Source of the DNA: a virus
Strand: one strand, 5' to 3'
DNA: 23,049 nt
IMG/VR virus record: IMGVR_UViG_3300007539_000242
Span: 1-23,049 of that record
Each line of letters starts with the position of its first letter. Position 1 is the first letter of the stretch. This document shows, one piece after another, positions 12,154-23,049 of this stretch. A model generated the notes under the pieces. The model did not search any database and had not been told where the DNA came from. It was given only the letters and a program-made list of their open reading frames with translations. The position numbers and the translations under genes were made by a program.

Positions 12154-13443
12154 ATGTCAATCAATGAAGACTTCATTATTGAAAACCTAACATCAGAAAA
12201 TGGCGCATCATCCGAAGATTACTTTGATGGTAGGTCAGTTTACAAAGCAGTCGCATATCAAGATGTGTCAATTGATGTTATAGATACTTGGGAAAAAAAG
12301 CCTTTTTATGGTTTGGTCAATGAAGATCATAATCCAATTTTGTTAAAAAGTCAAGAAAAACTTCAAGAAATCTCAGATGATGTATTTTGTTTGGATTTTG
12401 TGGCTTTGGCTTATAACGCTCTTAGAACCAACTGGCTTAATTTATTAAGGGCTGGTAGAGTATCTGATGAATCTAATTTTACAGAATTGATTCCTTTTAA
12501 AGCTTATGAAGAAATAAAACAAGATTATGAAGAATATTTAAATATCAATTTAGAAGAATATATAAATTATATTAAAGATAATATTAATATTAATTTTAGT
12601 ATTAATAATTTTAAATTCTTTATTAATTCTTTTAAAGAATTTTTAAAAGGTAATAATAAACCTTTTACTTTATCTTCTTTAATTCTTTCTAATTCTTTTT
12701 CTCAATTGAATTCTGGATTGGCTATTGAGATCTTTGAATTGGATTATTCAGATGATCAAAGAAAATATGAAGAAGTGATCTTAGATCCTAACTTTGAATA
12801 TTTCTGTTATCTAGCCAGAGACTATGGATTCAGAGTAGATAAGAATATTCCAAACAGAATTGTGGCAGATATTGGATCTCCTGAAATGCAGGAGTACATG
12901 AAGAAAGTAGGAATATCAGGAGAAACAGATTCTGTTCTTAAATCAAACTTTTTCAAAGAATATTATGATCTTGCTTATCTTGTTGAATACCCCATTATAA
13001 GGGATGCCATGCTGGAAGCTTACAATGAACTTGCAGATTCAGAACCGATTGTTGTGAAAAAAACATTTGACATTCAAGATAAATTTGGTAGAATGTGTAA
13101 AGCAAATAGGGCAATTCGAAGAAGATCAATGTCAAAAGATGTTTTTAACTTTGGGTATGGGGACAAATACTTTATTCAAATCTACGCTGAAATCAAAAAC
13201 GCAGAGATTCCAGACAAGAAAGAAAAGATGAAACTAGCTGAACTTAAAAAGAAATTGATTACACTCACTAAAAACAGAAAAAAAGAACTTGACATTGAAA
13301 GAGCCCTAAGCTATACTAACAGAGCATTTAAAAAATGTTTAGCTTTCAACTATGATCCAAACAGGGTCTTAACACACAGACAACTTAGGCTTCTGGAGGA
13401 AGAGTATGAAGACTTCTTCGAGGAGGAAAGAGAAGATGAATGA
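12154..13443 (+). CDS. Unassigned phage structural protein with an AT-rich central segment
   Basis: A 429-residue protein I do not assign to a known function. It follows the hub gene by 12 bases (with CGGAG) and overlaps the polymerase gene by four bases (ATGA), so it belongs to the structural transcript. The segment DPNFEYFCYLARDYGFRVDKNIPNRIVADIGSP (about residues 210-242) resembles a conserved stretch I associate with baseplate-adjacent virion proteins of marine phages. Residues about 125-190, encoded by 12530-12720, are extremely Asn/Ile/Phe/Lys-rich and coded almost only with A/T-ending codons. The C-terminus is strongly charged, ending in Glu/Asp. There is no membrane segment and no catalytic motif. 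Confidence 0.5.
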   Translation: MSINEDFIIENLTSENGASSEDYFDGRSVYKAVAYQDVSIDVIDTWEKKPFYGLVNEDHNPILLKSQEKLQEISDDVFCLDFVALAYNALRTNWLNLLRAGRVSDESNFTELIPFKAYEEIKQDYEEYLNINLEEYINYIKDNININFSINNFKFFINSFKEFLKGNNKPFTLSSLILSNSFSQLNSGLAIEIFELDYSDDQRKYEEVILDPNFEYFCYLARDYGFRVDKNIPNRIVADIGSPEMQEYMKKVGISGETDSVLKSNFFKEYYDLAYLVEYPIIRDAMLEAYNELADSEPIVVKKTFDIQDKFGRMCKANRAIRRRSMSKDVFNFGYGDKYFIQIYAEIKNAEIPDKKEKMKLAELKKKLITLTKNRKKELDIERALSYTNRAFKKCLAFNYDPNRVLTHRQLRLLEEEYEDFFEEEREDE

Positions 13444-14612
13444 TGTTCCAAACTTTTCAAAATCAAATGTTCTTCAAAGACAAATTCGTTCCATTCGAAC
13501 TTTCATCAATCACAACCAAAACATGGGGATACAACAAAAAGTTTAAAGGAAACAAAGTAGATTGTGCAGCTATCTGGGCTTCTGGTCAAAGCCCGGAAGA
13601 AGCTTGTCCTGAAACAATGCTGCAATCTTGGAAAAAAAGCAAAACGAAAATTGAAAGTATTTTGAAGTCTTATGTGAAAGTTGGAATCAATCCGTCAGAT
13701 ATCAATCTTAAATTAGCTGTCCCTGAAAGTATTTTAAAGAATTATTTTTGTTCTCTCGACAAGATCACTGAACATGTTTTCTTGTCTTATGAAAAGCCTT
13801 TGAATTATGATTTTATGTTTGATTTGCATTGGCTGGTCGCAGAAATTGCTGAACAGCATCTTAACTTTGATCTTTCTTTGATCCAAAGAAAAAGGTTCAA
13901 CACTTATTTCAAAAGAGTTGGAGACAACATTAAACTTGGAAAAACCAAAGTTAAATACAATCCTTATGGATCTGTCACAGGACGATTTGGATTGAAACAA
14001 GGTTCTTTTCCAATCATGAACTTGCCGAAAGAAGCAAGGTCTTCTATCATCCCAAACAACGATGCTTTTATTGAGCTAGACTTTAATGGAGCCGAGCTTC
14101 GCACTTTTCTACATTTGGCCGGCGAGGATCAGCCGGAAGGTGATCTTCATCAATGGATTTCAGATTCGATCTTCAAGGGCGAACTGAATCGTGAAAAAAC
14201 AAAACAAAAAGTGTTTTCATGGTTGTATGATCCAAACAAAAATGAAAAAGAACTAGAGAAAGTCTTTAAAAGAGGGGAAGTTCTGCAAAAGCATTTCGAT
14301 GGTTGTTTTGTTTCCACACCCTTTGGAAGAAAAATCAAATCTGATGATTATCATGCTTTGAATTATCTTATTCAATCAACTTCTTCAGACCTTTTTCTTC
14401 GACAAGTGATCAAGATCTTCAAGATGCTGGACGGTAAAAAATCAAAAATTGCTTTTACAATCCACGACTCCGTTGTTCTCGATTTTGCAAAAGAAGATCA
14501 AAATCTTTTGAAAGATTTGATCCAAGCGTTCAAAGAAACCAATTTTGGAATATTTAAAGTAAACATATCAGGAGGTAAGAATTTCGGTGAAATGAAAAAT
14601 ATTCCATTATAG
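13440..14612 (+). CDS. Compact family A DNA polymerase
   Basis: A 390-residue protein with the full polymerase active site of the Pol I family. Motif A is ELDFNGAELR with catalytic D214, steric-gate E219 and R221. Motif B keeps R251-x3-K255-x3-F259-x3-Y263, the same spacing as R754, K758, F762 and Y766 of E. coli Pol I. Motif C is IHDS with H342 and D343; the usual Glu after it is Ser. GSVTGRFG (177-184) and NYLIQSTSSD (308-317) fit the template-binding and pre-motif-C segments. There is no 3'-5' or 5'-3' exonuclease domain: only about 170 unassigned residues precede the palm, and the fingers are shortened. It overlaps the structural gene before it by four bases. It could be a repair or gap-filling polymerase or the replicase; a T4-like phage would normally use family B. 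Confidence 0.85.
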   Translation: MMFQTFQNQMFFKDKFVPFELSSITTKTWGYNKKFKGNKVDCAAIWASGQSPEEACPETMLQSWKKSKTKIESILKSYVKVGINPSDINLKLAVPESILKNYFCSLDKITEHVFLSYEKPLNYDFMFDLHWLVAEIAEQHLNFDLSLIQRKRFNTYFKRVGDNIKLGKTKVKYNPYGSVTGRFGLKQGSFPIMNLPKEARSSIIPNNDAFIELDFNGAELRTFLHLAGEDQPEGDLHQWISDSIFKGELNREKTKQKVFSWLYDPNKNEKELEKVFKRGEVLQKHFDGCFVSTPFGRKIKSDDYHALNYLIQSTSSDLFLRQVIKIFKMLDGKKSKIAFTIHDSVVLDFAKEDQNLLKDLIQAFKETNFGIFKVNISGGKNFGEMKNIPL

Positions 14613-15612: not shown

Positions 15613-16446
15613 ATGAACGTTGTCGGCCTAGGCAAGACTGCTTGCAACATTGCAAAAGAATTCCAAAAATACCCTCAATACAAAACTTTCTTTTTGAATT
15701 CAGAGAAGCTAGAAGAAAACAATTTCTTTCTTATTCCTAAACAAGATTCCCATGAGCTTTATGAAGAAAGATGCCCGGATTTGTCTTCCTTTTCTTCAAA
15801 GGTTGATGATGATGTTATTTTTATTGTGAATGGTGGAGGAACCATCACAGGATCTGTTTTAAGGATCTTGGAAAAGATCAAAGACAAAAAGATAACAATC
15901 ATCTTTTTGAAGCCTGAAGAAGCTTCTTTGACTTCTTTGAGAAAAACTCAAAATAAAGTTGTCTTCAATATTCTACAAGAATACACTAGATCTGGCTTGT
16001 TTGAGAGGATGTTTATTCTAGAATTAGATAAAGTAGAAGAAACAGTCACAGGAATTACGATCTTGAACAGGATCAAAAAGATCAACGAGTTTATTTGTGA
16101 TCTGATCCATACTGTGAACATATTCGAAAACACATCAGCAATCTTTGAAACGCCAAAAGAGAATGTTGACTTTTCAAGGATCTATTCTATTGGTATATAC
16201 GATTTTGAAAATAATTTAGAGAAAATGTTTTTTTCTCTTGACACTCCGAAAGAATTTTGCTATTATTACAACATTCCAATGAAAACGTTGGAAGAAGACA
16301 CTGAAATATTCAAAAGGATCACAAACAGAATGAAAGAAAAGACAAAAGAAAAAGAATGCCACATTTCCTATTCCATCTATGGAACTCACCACCAACAGAT
16401 ATACTCTTATGTTATATCCAATTCTCACTTAATTCAAAAATTTTAA
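15613..16446 (+). CDS. Divergent FtsZ/tubulin-like protein
   Basis: A 277-residue protein. The order of elements follows the FtsZ/tubulin GTPase domain. It has MNVVGLGKTACNIA (1-14) at the first nucleotide loop, and VNGGGTITGSVLRILEKI (72-89), compared with the signature GGGTGTG[AS] followed by a helix. Next is IIFLKPE (strand), then RKTQNKVVFNILQEYTRSGLFERMFIL, compared with the FtsZ segment before its 'VIPND' strand. An H7-like helix carries N158, and ENVDFSRI (183-190) matches the FtsZ T7 loop N-x-D-F-A-D. The T7 aspartate equivalent to E. coli D212 is Arg (R189), so GTP hydrolysis between subunits may be weak or absent. The C-terminal domain is short (about 85 residues). AGGAGG lies five bases before the ATG. 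Confidence 0.65.
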   Translation: MNVVGLGKTACNIAKEFQKYPQYKTFFLNSEKLEENNFFLIPKQDSHELYEERCPDLSSFSSKVDDDVIFIVNGGGTITGSVLRILEKIKDKKITIIFLKPEEASLTSLRKTQNKVVFNILQEYTRSGLFERMFILELDKVEETVTGITILNRIKKINEFICDLIHTVNIFENTSAIFETPKENVDFSRIYSIGIYDFENNLEKMFFSLDTPKEFCYYYNIPMKTLEEDTEIFKRITNRMKEKTKEKECHISYSIYGTHHQQIYSYVISNSHLIQKF

Positions 16447-16454
16447 AATAGTTC

Positions 16455-16483
16455 TTGACTTTCTGATTCAGATCGAATACAAT
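16455..16483 (+). promoter_or_regulatory. Sigma70-type promoter before the OMP decarboxylase-like gene
   Basis: TTGACT (16455-16460) and TACAAT (16478-16483) are separated by exactly 17 bases, in the gap after the tubulin-like gene and 23 bases before the ATG. The upstream context AGTTCTTGACTTT is shared with the promoter at 17453-17481. Confidence 0.75.
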
Positions 16484-16505
16484 TTAAAACATCAAAGGAA
16501 AGCAA

Positions 16506-17171
16506 ATGAAAAAGATTATCATCTCTTTGGATTGTCCACTGCAAAAAGCAGTTAAAATCATGAAGCAAACAGGCGAAATGGAACAAGTTTATGGATATAA
16601 GATTGGATTTCATCTTGTTTTTACATTTGGTTTGATTCGTTGTGTGAATGAGGTAAAGTTCAGAGCGCCAAACAAGAAAGTGATCTATGATCATCAAAAA
16701 GGAGGAAACGACATCCCACAAATGGGAATGAACTTTGCTTCTGCTATGAAAATGGCCGGCGTTGATGAAGCGATTCTGTTTCCTTTTGCCGGCCCTGACT
16801 CTTTGGATTTTTGGTTGAAAGAATTGAAAAAAAGAAACATTGAAACAATTGTTGGTGGTAAGATGACCCATCAAGGGTTTTCGAAAGAAGAAGGAGGTTT
16901 CTTTTCTGATGAAGATTCTTTGAAGATTTACAAGCAAGCTGCTGATTTTGGAGTGAATAGGTTTGTGCTTCCTCCTAATAAACACGACTTTTATGAAAAA
17001 GTTTCAAGTCATGTTGAAGGGAACAAGATTATCTATTCTCCCGGATTTGGAGCGCAAGGTTGCGAGGATAACTCTTATACAGATTATCCTATTATTGGAA
17101 GAAGCATTTATAACTCAGAAGATCCAAAAGAAAGTGTTTTGGAATGGTATGAAAAACTTTGTAAGGAATAA
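16506..17171 (+). CDS. pyrF: Orotidine 5'-phosphate decarboxylase-like protein
   Basis: A 221-residue (beta/alpha)8-type protein. The OMP decarboxylase would convert OMP to UMP in pyrimidine synthesis. Visible residues are D9 (ISLD), K32 (YKIG), and the catalytic array D62-H-Q-K65-x3-D69-I-P. The family usually has D-x-K-x-x-D-I-P; the D-x-x-K-x-x-x-D-I-P form has one extra residue on each side of the Lys and, as I recall, is found in some archaeal-type enzymes. Phosphate-binding elements are also present: SPGFGAQG (Gln) near 180 and IIGRSIY (Arg) near 198. It is of normal length for the family. It has its own promoter, and AAAGGA lies before the ATG. It probably helps feed nucleotide demand during infection. 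A related non-decarboxylating barrel cannot be excluded. Confidence 0.7.
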   Translation: MKKIIISLDCPLQKAVKIMKQTGEMEQVYGYKIGFHLVFTFGLIRCVNEVKFRAPNKKVIYDHQKGGNDIPQMGMNFASAMKMAGVDEAILFPFAGPDSLDFWLKELKKRNIETIVGGKMTHQGFSKEEGGFFSDEDSLKIYKQAADFGVNRFVLPPNKHDFYEKVSSHVEGNKIIYSPGFGAQGCEDNSYTDYPIIGRSIYNSEDPKESVLEWYEKLCKE

Positions 17172-17186: not shown

Positions 17187-17438
17187 ATGAAGTTCAATGT
17201 TTATCACGGTTCGTTTAAAAAGAAAGATGGTTCTATTCGAAGTATGAGGTTTGTGAAGCTGGATGAGATTCCAAAAGAAGCTCTTCCCGAAGGGAAAGGC
17301 GGAAAGAAAGCAAAGCTCCAAGAAGGAATGGAGTTGGTTTGGGATATTGAGAACAATGGATACAGAGTGGTTAATCACAATACTCTATTGGGTGAATTGG
17401 TTTCTTATCATATGTCTGGAAATTTGAATTTGAAATAA
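17187..17438 (+). CDS. Small WYL_2/SH3-like protein
   Basis: An 83-residue protein with a probable small beta barrel: YHGSFKKKDGSIRSMRFVKLDEIP (6-29), then LQEGMELVWDIENNGYRVVNHNTLLGE. The 'KKDG-[ST]-x-R-x-x-F/M' opening followed by 'IP' resembles the WYL_2 (former DUF2693) family of phage proteins, thought to be Sm/SH3-like and possibly nucleic-acid binding. The ATG follows TAGGAG by six bases. It sits between the OMP decarboxylase-like gene and the promoter of the SSB gene, so it is likely co-transcribed with the former. The role is unknown. Confidence 0.55.
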   Translation: MKFNVYHGSFKKKDGSIRSMRFVKLDEIPKEALPEGKGGKKAKLQEGMELVWDIENNGYRVVNHNTLLGELVSYHMSGNLNLK

Positions 17439-17452
17439 TTTGAAAAAAGTTC

Positions 17453-17481
17453 TTGACTTTTTGAATTCGTTTTGATATGAT
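17453..17481 (+). promoter_or_regulatory. Sigma70-type promoter before the SSB gene
   Basis: TTGACT (17453-17458), a 17-base spacer and TATGAT (17476-17481). The match to the bacterial housekeeping consensus is one mismatch in each box. It lies 43 bases before the SSB start and shares AGTTCTTGACTTT with the other promoter. It would drive SSB, UvsX and the small gene up to the terminator at 19589. Confidence 0.8.
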
Positions 17482-17524
17482 ATTACACAAGCTCGAAGCT
17501 GTTAACAACACAAAGGAGAAAACA

Positions 17525-19588: not shown

Positions 19589-19610
19589 GAAGCCCGAAAG
19601 GGCTTCTTTT
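19589..19610 (+). terminator. Intrinsic terminator after the recombination genes
   Basis: GAAGCCC and GGGCTTC form a perfect 7-base stem with a GAAA tetraloop, followed by TTTT. It lies 15 bases after the stop of the 76-residue gene and directly before the first tRNA. Confidence 0.85.
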
Positions 19611-19684
19611 CGACTCGTAGCTCAGCAGGTAAGAGCGCACAACTTATAATTGTGAGGACGAGGGTTCAAATCCCTCCGGGTCAA
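19611..19684 (+). tRNA. tRNA-Ile (anticodon UAU)
   Basis: A 74-base cloverleaf. D stem GCTC/GAGC; anticodon stem CACAA/TTGTG with loop CTTATAA, anticodon TAT; T arm GAGGG-TTCAAAT-CCCTC. The acceptor pairs six of seven positions; the first pair would be C1-A72. The discriminator is A, and CCA is not encoded. It reads AUA isoleucine codons. Its 5' end touches the T-run of the terminator. Confidence 0.85.
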
Positions 19685-19688
19685 TTTT

Positions 19689-19761
19689 TCCGATATAGCT
19701 CAGTTGGTAGAGCAGGTGGCTGTTAACCACCTTGTCGCAGGTTCGAGTCCTGCTGTCGGAG
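19689..19761 (+). tRNA. tRNA-Asn (anticodon GUU)
   Basis: A 73-base cloverleaf with a fully paired acceptor TCCGATA/TGTCGGA (one T-G pair), D stem GCTC/GAGC, anticodon stem GGTGG/CCACC with loop CTGTTAA, and T arm GCAGG-TTCGAGT-CCTGC. The discriminator is G. No encoded CCA. It starts four bases after the Ile tRNA. Confidence 0.95.
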
Positions 19762-19769
19762 CAAATTTT

Positions 19770-19851
<82 letters not shown>

Positions 19852-19876
19852 CTAATTTCCAACAAAGGAGAATAAA

Positions 19877-20128
19877 ATGTCAAAGATTAAAATCACAGAA
19901 CACCCTGAATTAACCTTACTTTGTAAACAATACATTGATGGAGATAGAGAAGATAAGCAGATTGTTTGGATGGAGATGGCCGATCTTTGTTTGGAAAAGA
20001 GTCTGAACCATCATCTTTTCTTTGAAGAGTATTGCAGAGTTCACGGAGTTGGTCTTTTTGAAGGTCAAAAAAAGAAAAAGAAAGCCAGACCATCTAACAG
20101 AGAAATGAAAAGGATGAAGAAAAGATGA
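19877..20128 (+). CDS. Small protein with Lys-rich tail after the tRNAs
   Basis: An 83-residue protein. The N-terminal 55 residues are a probable helical domain (LTLLCKQYIDGDREDKQI, then LCLEKSLNHHLFFEEYC). The C-terminus from residue 65 is very basic (Lys/Arg, ending MKRMKKR), which suggests nucleic-acid contact. The ATG follows AAAGGAG. The stop overlaps the next ATG as ATGA. A partial second copy of its 3' third lies at 21995-22078, showing that this junction was duplicated when the glycosyltransferase genes arrived. No family recognised. Confidence 0.65.
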   Translation: MSKIKITEHPELTLLCKQYIDGDREDKQIVWMEMADLCLEKSLNHHLFFEEYCRVHGVGLFEGQKKKKKARPSNREMKRMKKR

Positions 20129-20150
20129 AACCAAACGACTTATCTATCAA
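20030..20150 (+). repeat. Left copy of the direct repeat flanking the glycosyltransferase cassette
   Basis: It covers the 3' third of the 83-residue gene, its ATGA junction and the first eight codons of the next gene. It matches 21995-22100 apart from two gaps (3 and 12 bases, both whole codons) and scattered changes. The block CCAGACCATCTAACA and the block AAGAAAAGATGA are identical in both. Confidence 0.85.
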
Positions 20151-21216
20151 TGAAAGTAGCGAAAAACTAAGAATAGGCTATCTTGCTATGAGTAAGAGGA
20201 TAGAATCAGGTTCTTACCGCATATGGGTTCATGATTATAATCAGTATTTTAAAGATATCGGAGTTGACTCAGAGATAATTCTAATTTCTGAAGACAACGC
20301 AGTTGAAAAAATAGGTAATCGTGACATTATAATCATAGGCAAATGTCTTCACCATAATCTTAGTTCTATAGTTGGCTACATAAAGAGTGTTAATTCTAGC
20401 ATTGTTATTGGAACAATAAATCCTCCTAGAAACGCTAGTCCGGATGGAATTGATTTTGCCATGGTAGGTTCCATGGAGGAGTTTGATAGCTTATCATTTT
20501 ACAAAAATGTAATTTTGATTCCACTTATAGAATCGATCTATCACTATAGTGAGATTAAAAAACATAAAAAAGAAGATATTTTAAAGATATGCTACCATGG
20601 CTGGACTCCTCACCTTTTTTCTTTTGTGTGCGGATTGAAGGAAGCATTAGAGAGATTTTCAAAAGAAAGAAAAATTGAACTTCATATTATTTCTGAAAAA
20701 TCGCAAAATGAATTTAACTGGCGACATGAAAATGGATTGCCAGAAGGCATATCAGTCTTGTTTAAAAAATGGAATATTAATACAGTAAAAGAAAATTTGC
20801 AATCCTGTGACATAGGAATATGTCCCGGTGTATATGATATGACAGATGTTGAGCTTACCGTTAACAATAAGGTTGGTAAATTTTCAACCGATTACGTAAT
20901 GAGATACAAAAATAAAACAAATAACGGGCGAGCCTTAGTTTTTATGTCTTTGGGGGTGCCGGTTGTTTCAGATTTTAGTCCTAGTAATTTTCATCTATTC
21001 GGAGACTCAATCGCCGGCGCAGTTGCTCATACACCCCTAGGGTGGTATAAGGCATTAAGTAGATTTAGTGATCATAATGAAAGAAATAAGACTTCTGAGT
21101 ATGCAAAAAAGTTTTTAGAAAAATATTATAACCCTCATGTGTGGGCAAGGAGGTGTTATGAACAGATGTTGAGAATATGGAAAGAAAAAAATAATAGTTT
21201 AATTATTGGAGCTTAG
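20125..21216 (+). CDS. Glycosyltransferase, GT-B fold (GT4-like)
   Basis: A 363-residue protein. After the first eight residues (MKPNDLSI, see the repeat) a Rossmann-like N-terminal half begins with LRIGYLAMS. The C-terminal half has YHGW (157-160), CDIGICPG (228-235) and NNGRALVFMSLGVPVVSDFSPSN (267-289), the donor-binding part of GT4-type transferases where 'R-A-L-E-x-M-x-x-G-x-P-V-V' is the usual pattern. It would transfer a sugar from an activated donor; the acceptor (phage DNA, a virion protein or host surface sugar) cannot be seen. It has about 16 AUA codons, against none that I noticed in uvsX, so it looks newly acquired. Its start overlaps the 83-residue gene (ATGA). Confidence 0.75.
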   Translation: MKPNDLSINESSEKLRIGYLAMSKRIESGSYRIWVHDYNQYFKDIGVDSEIILISEDNAVEKIGNRDIIIIGKCLHHNLSSIVGYIKSVNSSIVIGTINPPRNASPDGIDFAMVGSMEEFDSLSFYKNVILIPLIESIYHYSEIKKHKKEDILKICYHGWTPHLFSFVCGLKEALERFSKERKIELHIISEKSQNEFNWRHENGLPEGISVLFKKWNINTVKENLQSCDIGICPGVYDMTDVELTVNNKVGKFSTDYVMRYKNKTNNGRALVFMSLGVPVVSDFSPSNFHLFGDSIAGAVAHTPLGWYKALSRFSDHNERNKTSEYAKKFLEKYYNPHVWARRCYEQMLRIWKEKNNSLIIGA

Positions 21217-21220
21217 TAAG

Positions 21221-21979
21221 ATGGATAAATTAGATAAAGGTTTTTTATATATTGCTTTCGGTGATTCTTTTACAAAAGAGGCTTTAATGTCTATCAAGTC
21301 ATTAAAGAGGTTTAATGATGAACCGGTCGCTTTATATACTGATCAGGAATTGCCTAATGATATAAAAAGTTTAGTCGACTTATACGCCAAAATAGAACCT
21401 AGGCATATAAGGGCTAAGGTTGATTTTATTGATAAGACACCGTTTAAGAAAACCGTATACCTAGACTCTGATACTGTGATAGCAAGAAACATATCAGATA
21501 TGTTTGAGATATTAGAACGTTTTGATGTAGGCCTAGTCCATGATTATGCCAGAAAAAGATTAAAATACTCTAAATTAGTTCCTGAATATGCTAATATACC
21601 TTACGCTTTTTCTGAATTTAACGGTGGTATTATGGCATACAATGACTCTGAAAGTTCTACAATGTTTTTGAATAGGTGGAAAGAGTATTTTTATAAATAT
21701 TACCAACAGACTAGTGGGTGGGATCAGGTTAGCTTAAGGGTTTCCTTGTGGGAGAGTGATGTAAGAATACACACGTTTCCTTTTGAGTACAACATAAGAG
21801 GGAAATCTACTAGGGAAAAAGTTAGAAATTTAAAAGGCGAGTTTGGAGATGATCATTTAGAGCCTAGAATATACCACGTACACTATGATAGGGAAGTTCA
21901 TTTCGGCAAGTTTCAATATACCTTAAATGACCTTGATGAGTTTGAGAAAAAGATAAAAAATCAATGCATGGACTACTAA
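21221..21979 (+). CDS. Glycosyltransferase, GT8-like
   Basis: The start is taken at ATG 21221, nine bases after GGAG in the end of the preceding gene, giving 252 residues; an earlier in-frame TTG is less likely. The GT-A pattern is clear: VYLDSDTVIARN (79-90) contains the metal-binding D82-S-D84. FNGGIMAYN (133-141) and GWDQ (166-169) fit the GT8/glycogenin acceptor and catalytic loops. IYHVHYD (217-223) supplies a likely third metal ligand. It would work with the upstream GT-B enzyme to build a short glycan. It has about 11 AUA codons. Both genes lie between the direct repeat copies, forming one cassette. Confidence 0.75.
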   Translation: MDKLDKGFLYIAFGDSFTKEALMSIKSLKRFNDEPVALYTDQELPNDIKSLVDLYAKIEPRHIRAKVDFIDKTPFKKTVYLDSDTVIARNISDMFEILERFDVGLVHDYARKRLKYSKLVPEYANIPYAFSEFNGGIMAYNDSESSTMFLNRWKEYFYKYYQQTSGWDQVSLRVSLWESDVRIHTFPFEYNIRGKSTREKVRNLKGEFGDDHLEPRIYHVHYDREVHFGKFQYTLNDLDEFEKKIKNQCMDY

Positions 21980-21994
21980 TCTTCACCAGACACA

Positions 21995-22078
21995 TATAGA
22001 GCTCATGGAGTTAGTCTTTTTGAAGGTCAAAAAACCAGACCATCTAACAAAGAAATGAAAAAAATGAAGAAAAGATGA
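21995..22078 (+). pseudogene. Remnant copy of the C-terminus of the 83-residue gene
   Basis: In frame it reads HGVSLFEGQKTRPSNKEMKK and on to MKKR-stop, matching HGVGLFEGQ...RPSNREMKRMKKR at 20042-20128. It lacks any start and the N-terminal two thirds, and has a 12-base in-frame deletion in the Lys run. Its TGA overlaps the ATG of the next gene exactly as in the intact copy. Confidence 0.8.
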
Positions 22079-22100
22079 TATCAAAAAACTTATCTATTAT
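21995..22100 (+). repeat. Right copy of the direct repeat flanking the glycosyltransferase cassette
   Basis: It covers the gene remnant and the first codons of the 220-residue gene (MISKNLSI, compared with MKPNDLSI at the left copy). The two ATG codons are 1950 bases apart. This is the probable original junction, now separated from its upstream gene. Confidence 0.85.
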
Positions 22101-22737
22101 TCGAGAAGAGCTTTCCAAGAAGACTCCAGACTTTAGGCTTGTTCACGAACTTTCTAAGAGAGATCAGATGCTAATAGATTATGTTGAGCGGCATCTTATA
22201 GATCTTGGAATCAGAAAGCAACTGTTGGATGATTGTTGTAAAAATATGACCATCTTCCCATCTTTTGAAAGTTACACAGAGATCGAAGAAACTTACCTGA
22301 AAGCTTTAGGATGGAGAAAAAGACAATTAAAAGTAAGGTGGACAAAGGAACTGTCACAGGATCTTTTTGCATTCCATGGGATCGAAATGAATGAAGTTGA
22401 AACAAACGACAACTTTAGCGGCATTGGTGCATACTGGGAGCGAGTATCGAAAGAGGAGTCTGTAGACTTTTATGACCTTCGAGAACATAGACGAGGCTAT
22501 AGTGACGGAAAGAATGATTGCCATGCTAATTCTCCCTTTGAGATTAGGCACGACAAATGGAGCTTTAATGGCACTGTAAGCGGACATATAGTTAAAGTAA
22601 GACCAGACGGAAACTTCTGGAGCACCACACCAGAACCCACTAGGGGAACTAGCCCAGAGTACATTAGTGGCTACCGAGAAGGTTATGAAGAAACCAGAGA
22701 AAGCTTAAGAGATTCTTTAAGGGCGGAAAGGTGGTGA
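22075..22737 (+). CDS. Unassigned 220-residue phage protein
   Basis: A soluble, charged protein. Residues 10-60 are helical (Lys/Glu/Arg-rich, then LIDYVERHLIDLGIRKQLLDDCC). Residues 60-140 contain short aromatic segments. The C-terminal part has repeated Gly/Tyr motifs (RRGYSDGKND near 140, GYREGYEETRESLRD near 200), which may be helix-capping turns. It has no membrane segment or recognised catalytic motif. It begins by overlapping the remnant of the 83-residue gene (ATGA), so it was probably the natural neighbour of that gene before the glycosyltransferases were inserted. The next gene follows after seven bases. I do not recognise the family. Confidence 0.6.
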   Translation: MISKNLSIIREELSKKTPDFRLVHELSKRDQMLIDYVERHLIDLGIRKQLLDDCCKNMTIFPSFESYTEIEETYLKALGWRKRQLKVRWTKELSQDLFAFHGIEMNEVETNDNFSGIGAYWERVSKEESVDFYDLREHRRGYSDGKNDCHANSPFEIRHDKWSFNGTVSGHIVKVRPDGNFWSTTPEPTRGTSPEYISGYREGYEETRESLRDSLRAERW

Positions 22738-22744
22738 GGAGAAA

Positions 22745-23049
22745 ATGAGAACAAAAGAGATCAACAAGTGGCTTAAAGAAGGGGGTGAATTCCCAATATC
22801 TTTACTCTCCGAAGTAGAACTTTTAAAAGAGAATGATATCAAAATCGTCAAAGAAGACAGTGACTATTACATGACCCACTACCACCCCCATAGGGTAGTG
22901 TATCAAACTGTGGGTGAGAAACTTCATGGAGAACATAATTTCTATTCCAGAAAAGAAGGGACATTGATGCTTCAGGAGAGAACAAGCTATCTACACGGCG
23001 AGGTTGTCAAAACAGAAGGGTGGTGGGATAACGGACAGAAGAGATATGA
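22745..23049 (+). CDS. Partial gene, possibly MORN_2-repeat protein
   Basis: An open frame of 101 complete codons from ATG 22745 (GAGGAG just before it) that runs off the window end with no stop. The N-terminus is helical (RTKEINKWLKEGG, residues 2-14). From about residue 55 the sequence alternates Gly/Tyr segments (GEKLHGEHNF, then YLHGEVVKTEGWWDNGQKRY). The 'W-[YW]-x-NGQK-x' unit is typical of MORN_2 repeats. Such repeats occur in YwqK-type and other bacterial proteins and do not by themselves give a function. The C-terminal part is outside the window. Confidence 0.6.
   Translation, partial: MRTKEINKWLKEGGEFPISLLSEVELLKENDIKIVKEDSDYYMTHYHPHRVVYQTVGEKLHGEHNFYSRKEGTLMLQERTSYLHGEVVKTEGWWDNGQKRY

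Follow-up and report, generated by a model that had tools for sequence, protein, structure and literature searches.

The window analyzed here, a 23,049-base virus record (IMGVR_UViG_3300007539_000242), contains two glycosyltransferase genes (GT1 and GT2) lying between two copies of a direct repeat, and the insertion of this cassette with duplication of its target is well supported. The record derives from a contractile-tailed phage, with tail sheath, tail tube, baseplate, single-strand DNA-binding, and RecA-like proteins, whose group has no close named relative (among the best hits, its RecA is at most about 33% identical to those of named phages). The genes encoding 83, 220, and 124 residues are called p83, p220, and p124. 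The features of the site are the following.

19610 to 19852, plus strand: three tRNA genes (Ile, Asn, and Tyr) 5' of p83, a cluster that varies among relatives.
19877 to 20128, plus strand: p83, an intact open reading frame (ORF) with homologues at the same place in relatives; conserved left border of the variable site.
20036 to 20147, plus strand: left repeat copy, running from the last 30 codons of p83 through the ATGA overlap into codon 8 of GT1.
20125 to 21216, plus strand: GT1, a predicted glycosyltransferase of GT-B fold (GT4-like), from an AlphaFold model, Foldseek, and 38 viral relatives.
20125 to 20163, plus strand: N-terminal leader of GT1 (MKPNDLSINESSE), missing from GT1 relatives, with its first eight codons within the duplicated junction.
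21221 to 21979, plus strand: GT2, a probable glycosyltransferase of GT-A type (GT8/glycogenin-like) with a DSDT (DxD) motif, from Pfam, profile, and alignment.
21998 to 22097, plus strand: right repeat copy, running from the last 26 codons of p83 through the ATGA overlap into codon 8 of p220.
22075 to 22737, plus strand: p220, an orphan without relatives, with a weak capsid-like motif at residues 81 to 110.
22745 to 23049, plus strand: p124, which runs past the window end; in one group of relatives (group A, below) it lies directly behind p83 with an ATGA overlap.

A repeat search and local alignment delimited copies of 112 nt (left) and 100 nt (right) that share 90 of 100 aligned bases, with 10 mismatches and one 12-nt in-frame gap. 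The alignment scored 123, compared with a best score of 31 in 500 shuffles, and the longest exact run was 21 nt. These results confirm a preliminary description of the site, made from the letters alone, in which the repeat flanked the two glycosyltransferase genes, each copy ran from the end of p83 across the ATGA overlap into the first codons of the following gene, and the left copy was joined to intact p83 and the right copy to p220. The overlaps fall at 20125 to 20128 and 22075 to 22078, and the eight codons that follow encode MKPNDLSI in GT1 and MISKNLSI in p220. Both copies stop within codon 8 of the gene behind them, and the ends are sharp. The right copy has lost the first 53 codons of p83 as well as 4 codons of a lysine run; it lies directly past the GT2 stop codon, in frame with GT2, and has in-frame ATGs only as Met codons near its end. 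The 12-base gap noted in the preliminary description was recovered, whereas a further 3-base gap and an extension of the copies to 121 and 106 bases were not; the bases between GT2 and the remnant resemble upstream p83 no better than shuffled sequence (497 of 500 shuffles matched as well), and an extension of the repeat upstream of 21998 was rejected. The window and relatives L012, L013, L016, and L025 contained no other gene-flanking direct repeat of this size.

The junction between repeat and cassette is known from one metagenomic contig, and no second contig with it was found. This circumstance, in a virus record of 23 kb, leaves room for an assembly chimera of strains that share p83. We consider that explanation very improbable: the longest exact word shared by the copies (21 nt) is short for a typical assembly join, GT2 meets the remnant outside any shared sequence, and the in-frame leader of GT1 would have to be a coincidence.

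Searches with RecA and p83 retrieved close relatives (RecA 98% identical, DNA about 95% identical) that form group A (L007, L008, L009/L013, L010, L016, and L018) and group B (L002 to L006, L012, L015, and L017), together nine contigs. Homologues of p83 occupy the same place in close relatives (94% and 86% identical) and in distant ones (33 to 49%). In group A, p83 directly overlaps p124 by ATGA; in group B, 27 nt separate p83 from a 76-residue DUF3310 gene. GT1, GT2, p220, and a second piece of p83 are absent from all nine close-relative contigs that cover the site, and the cassette and second copy are also absent from the more distant relatives with a p83 homologue. A scan for the p83-end pattern returned one match per contig in nine contigs, all of groups A and B, and GT2 had no match in the contigs of eight relatives, one of which spans 157 kb. 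Because the nine close relatives have a single copy and no glycosyltransferases, the cassette and second copy are specific to the lineage of the window. The possibility that the copies are ancient paralogues with other genes between them was rejected, as the second copy occurs in no relative.

The contents of the place behind p83 differ among relatives, and we therefore regard it as a cargo site. At least five states were seen: nothing (group B); p124 (group A); GT1-GT2-p220-p124 (the window); aldehyde dehydrogenase, either by itself or together with saccharopine dehydrogenase (L021, L025, and L026); and yet another gene (L106, p83 49% identical). In the distant relatives with aldehyde dehydrogenase (RecA about 72%, p83 33 to 41%), this gene lies behind p83 and before or near the DUF3310 gene, and L025 also carries saccharopine dehydrogenase (cargo at L025 8632 to 11323, L021 2457 to 3800, and L026 2955 to 4313), which suggests that this cargo consists of lysine-pathway auxiliary genes. 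The tRNA cluster 5' of p83 likewise varies, reading Ile-Asn-Tyr in the window, Ile-Asn-Tyr-Glu or Ile-Phe-Glu in group B, and only Glu in group A. Downstream of the cargo site, L013 (5655 to 9128) encodes two HNH-like, repeat-rich proteins without a Pfam hit and a GIY-YIG/NUMOD3 endonuclease. T4-type phages and cyanophages have hyperplastic regions in which conserved border genes enclose changing cargo (PMC2984593), and the p83 site, with its five contents, behaves as such a region. It differs in belonging to another phage group and in its location, between the tRNA cluster and p83 on one side and the DUF3310 gene on the other.

The two cassette genes form a recognizable unit elsewhere. The AlphaFold model of GT1 (pLDDT 82.6) has two Rossmann-like domains that match solved GT4 enzymes, with PimA, BshA, and MshA as the best Foldseek matches in the PDB (E down to 9e-12, probability 1.00, TM about 0.6). 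No Pfam or PHROGs family matched GT1; because the assignment comes from fold only, we describe it as predicted GT4-like and not as GT4. GT2 matches Pfam PF03407 at 22.6 bits (cut-off, 22), PF01501 weakly, and the profile of glycogenin-1 structures (E 2e-5), and its DSDT metal site is invariant in an alignment of eight sequences; this profile score and DxD site point to a GT8/Nucleotid_trans enzyme. GT1 relatives occur at 38 viral loci, each of which holds a GT2 relative nearby (downstream of GT1 in 37) and none of which holds p83 or genes of the p83 region. Several of the seven loci viewed in detail lie within islands of sugar-pathway-like genes, as named from sequence. GT1-GT2 is thus a conserved, portable two-gene glycosylation module, and the conserved pair elsewhere, together with its absence from relatives of the window, supports the earlier proposal that it was inserted between the copies. 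Glycan islands of uncultured viruses (L088 to L094 and L110 to L147) contain the same two adjoining enzyme families, but the pair in the window stands alone, outside any island, and its GT1 has an added leader. We found no relative of GT2 in bacterial and archaeal genomes and none of GT1, GT2, p83, or p220 in named phages. The two enzymes may modify glycans of the phage or host surface.

Most GT1 relatives begin at query residues 14 to 16, so the first 13 residues of GT1, which have no counterpart, are an addition; eight of them come from the duplicated junction. We judge it somewhat better than an even bet that the module entered the p83 cargo site in one template-switch or staggered-break event that duplicated about 100 bp of target. 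The module would have entered just behind p83, at a site of repeated cargo gain and loss, and the duplicated target would extend from the p83 end over the stop/start overlap into codon 8 of the following gene. During phage replication or break repair, synthesis would leave its template inside codon 8 of whichever gene followed p83, copy GT1-GT2 from foreign phage DNA, and re-enter about 100 bp upstream in p83; the same scar would result if a staggered break were filled in. With the left copy, p83 would then stay whole, and GT1 would acquire an existing start codon, coupling through ATGA, and a leader in frame; the right copy would be a C-terminal piece of p83, itself dead but still providing the start region of p220. 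We infer a single event and its enzymology in this form as the most economical account, since one insertion with backward re-entry would, in a single step, leave p83 whole on the left and truncated on the right, fuse the leader to GT1, and keep the start of p220.

Hallmarks of transposition or homing were not found with the cassette. The cassette has no further substantial ORF that might encode a transposase, and its only inverted repeat is a 24-nt pair unrelated to its ends, which argues against a transposon with target-site duplication. No homing endonuclease gene lies within the cassette of the window, which likewise argues against homing-driven insertion. The GIY-YIG gene of L013 lies about 5 kb downstream of p83, and free-standing endonucleases in T4 cause co-conversion of flanking DNA (PMC2988022); on these grounds, a break-induced exchange near the cargo site is possible but unproven.

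Several observations weigh against a single insertion into the resident junction. Across 81 aligned bases, which are too few to resolve a tree of the copies, the right copy has 6 to 7 differences to the left, 5 to group B, and 7 to 9 to group A, and is thus no nearer to the left copy than to group B, unlike a recent copy. In addition, p83 followed by p220 occurs in no relative, so the assumed target junction is unobserved. The GC content of the cassette (33%, compared with 40.6% for p220, 41% for p124, and 43% for recA) speaks in favor of the insertion, but composition is weak evidence because p83 itself is AT-rich (35% GC).

The similar distances (6, 5, and 7 to 9) are what would be expected if an illegitimate crossover, from behind GT2 into mid-p83', had joined a phage carrying p83-(leader)GT1-GT2 to a co-infecting relative carrying p83'-p220-p124, the copies having diverged beforehand. 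The right copy lacks the private AGA codon of the left and otherwise has states common to A or B, and the genes behind p83 do differ between relatives. This two-phage crossover is the main rival and fits the distances equally well; we nevertheless hold it to be doubtful, as it needs an extra earlier step by which GT1 and p220 came to share their first eight codons, p83-GT1 is found in no relative, and quicker decay of a dead copy accounts for the same distances. For the right copy, dN is 0.07 to 0.08, compared with 0.025 to 0.06 between intact p83 genes (0.025 for window p83 versus group B), which indicates relaxed constraint; recA dS is 0.20 to group B and 0.25 to 0.27 to group A. These values are compatible with a dead copy that was made either within the lineage of the window or near the time at which it parted from group B, and likewise with one brought by a related phage; the data do not separate the two. 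The copies have diverged, as first described, but it does not strictly follow that the event is not the latest one, since the right copy may have entered diverged or decayed faster.

Favoring a single insertion leaves the gene that originally followed p83 to be considered. The preliminary description assumed an original p83-p220 pair, which is not seen among the relatives, where p83 is followed by p124 or by 27 nt and the 76-residue gene. Outside a 30-residue capsid-like motif, p220 has no relatives among viral contigs and phage records or in the contigs of the relatives themselves, and for this reason its ancestry behind p83 is unproven. If p220 was never resident, GT1-GT2, the remnant, and p220 might have come as one block from a phage with its own p83-like gene. 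The absence of p220 from all relatives and the direct joining of p83 to p124 in group A favor such an arrival, but we consider it improbable: the GC content of p220 is backbone-like, in contrast to that of the glycosyltransferases, and the bases ahead of p124 in the window, which resemble the group A p83-p124 junction (23 of 500 shuffles were as good), fit loss of p220 in group A via short repeats as well as its gain here. The 27-nt spacer of group B was rejected as a remnant of the GT1 leader or of p220 (101 and 396 of 500 shuffles, respectively, were as good). Residues 81 to 110 of p220 (22315 to 22404) are similar to a motif conserved in the major-capsid-like protein of the relatives (LKAKWSPELGQDLNAYHNLDAE; identity of 45% across 30 residues), and a single-sequence structure model of p220 was useless (pLDDT 33).

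Elsewhere in the window, a 277-residue protein (15613 to 16446) has a GGGTITG motif and a glycine-rich start recalling FtsZ/tubulin, a resemblance only, with no supporting Pfam or PDB match; L106 has a 40% identical homologue. Two sigma-70-like promoter regions that are 71% similar (TTCTTGACTT...; 16436 to 16491 and 17434 to 17489) each precede a gene, and a similar TTCTTGACTT stretch lies ahead of an exonuclease gene near position 7020 of L012. A phage gene of the orotidine 5'-phosphate decarboxylase/HUMPS family occupies 16506 to 17171 (Pfam E 5e-11), and a family A DNA polymerase frame of only 390 residues lies at 13440 to 14612, with a similar short frame in L106.

The event belongs to an ordinary class, the lateral gain of cargo well known in phages, and has an unusually clear scar. 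Gene gain by virulent phages without integrases or transposons is poorly understood, as the junctions of imported DNA, in T4-related genomes for example, typically lack the signature of known mobile elements (PMC2993671). The ectopic insertions described there likewise place foreign genes at gene boundaries without a mobile-element signature, but in the window the duplication of 100 bp of target and the in-frame fusion at the start site can still be read; a literature search retrieved no phage example of this scar. The scar reveals where the cassette was joined, how much target was copied, and where the new gene obtained its start codon and leader, and close relatives show the site without the cassette. 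As a long shot, the p83 end and start region may be a docking sequence, where incoming genes attach and take over the start signal and which backward template switching duplicates; if so, docking there would be a general route of cargo loading and swapping for this phage group. The finding also identifies a hotspot for cargo in this group of uncultured phages, together with a portable module of two glycosylation genes.
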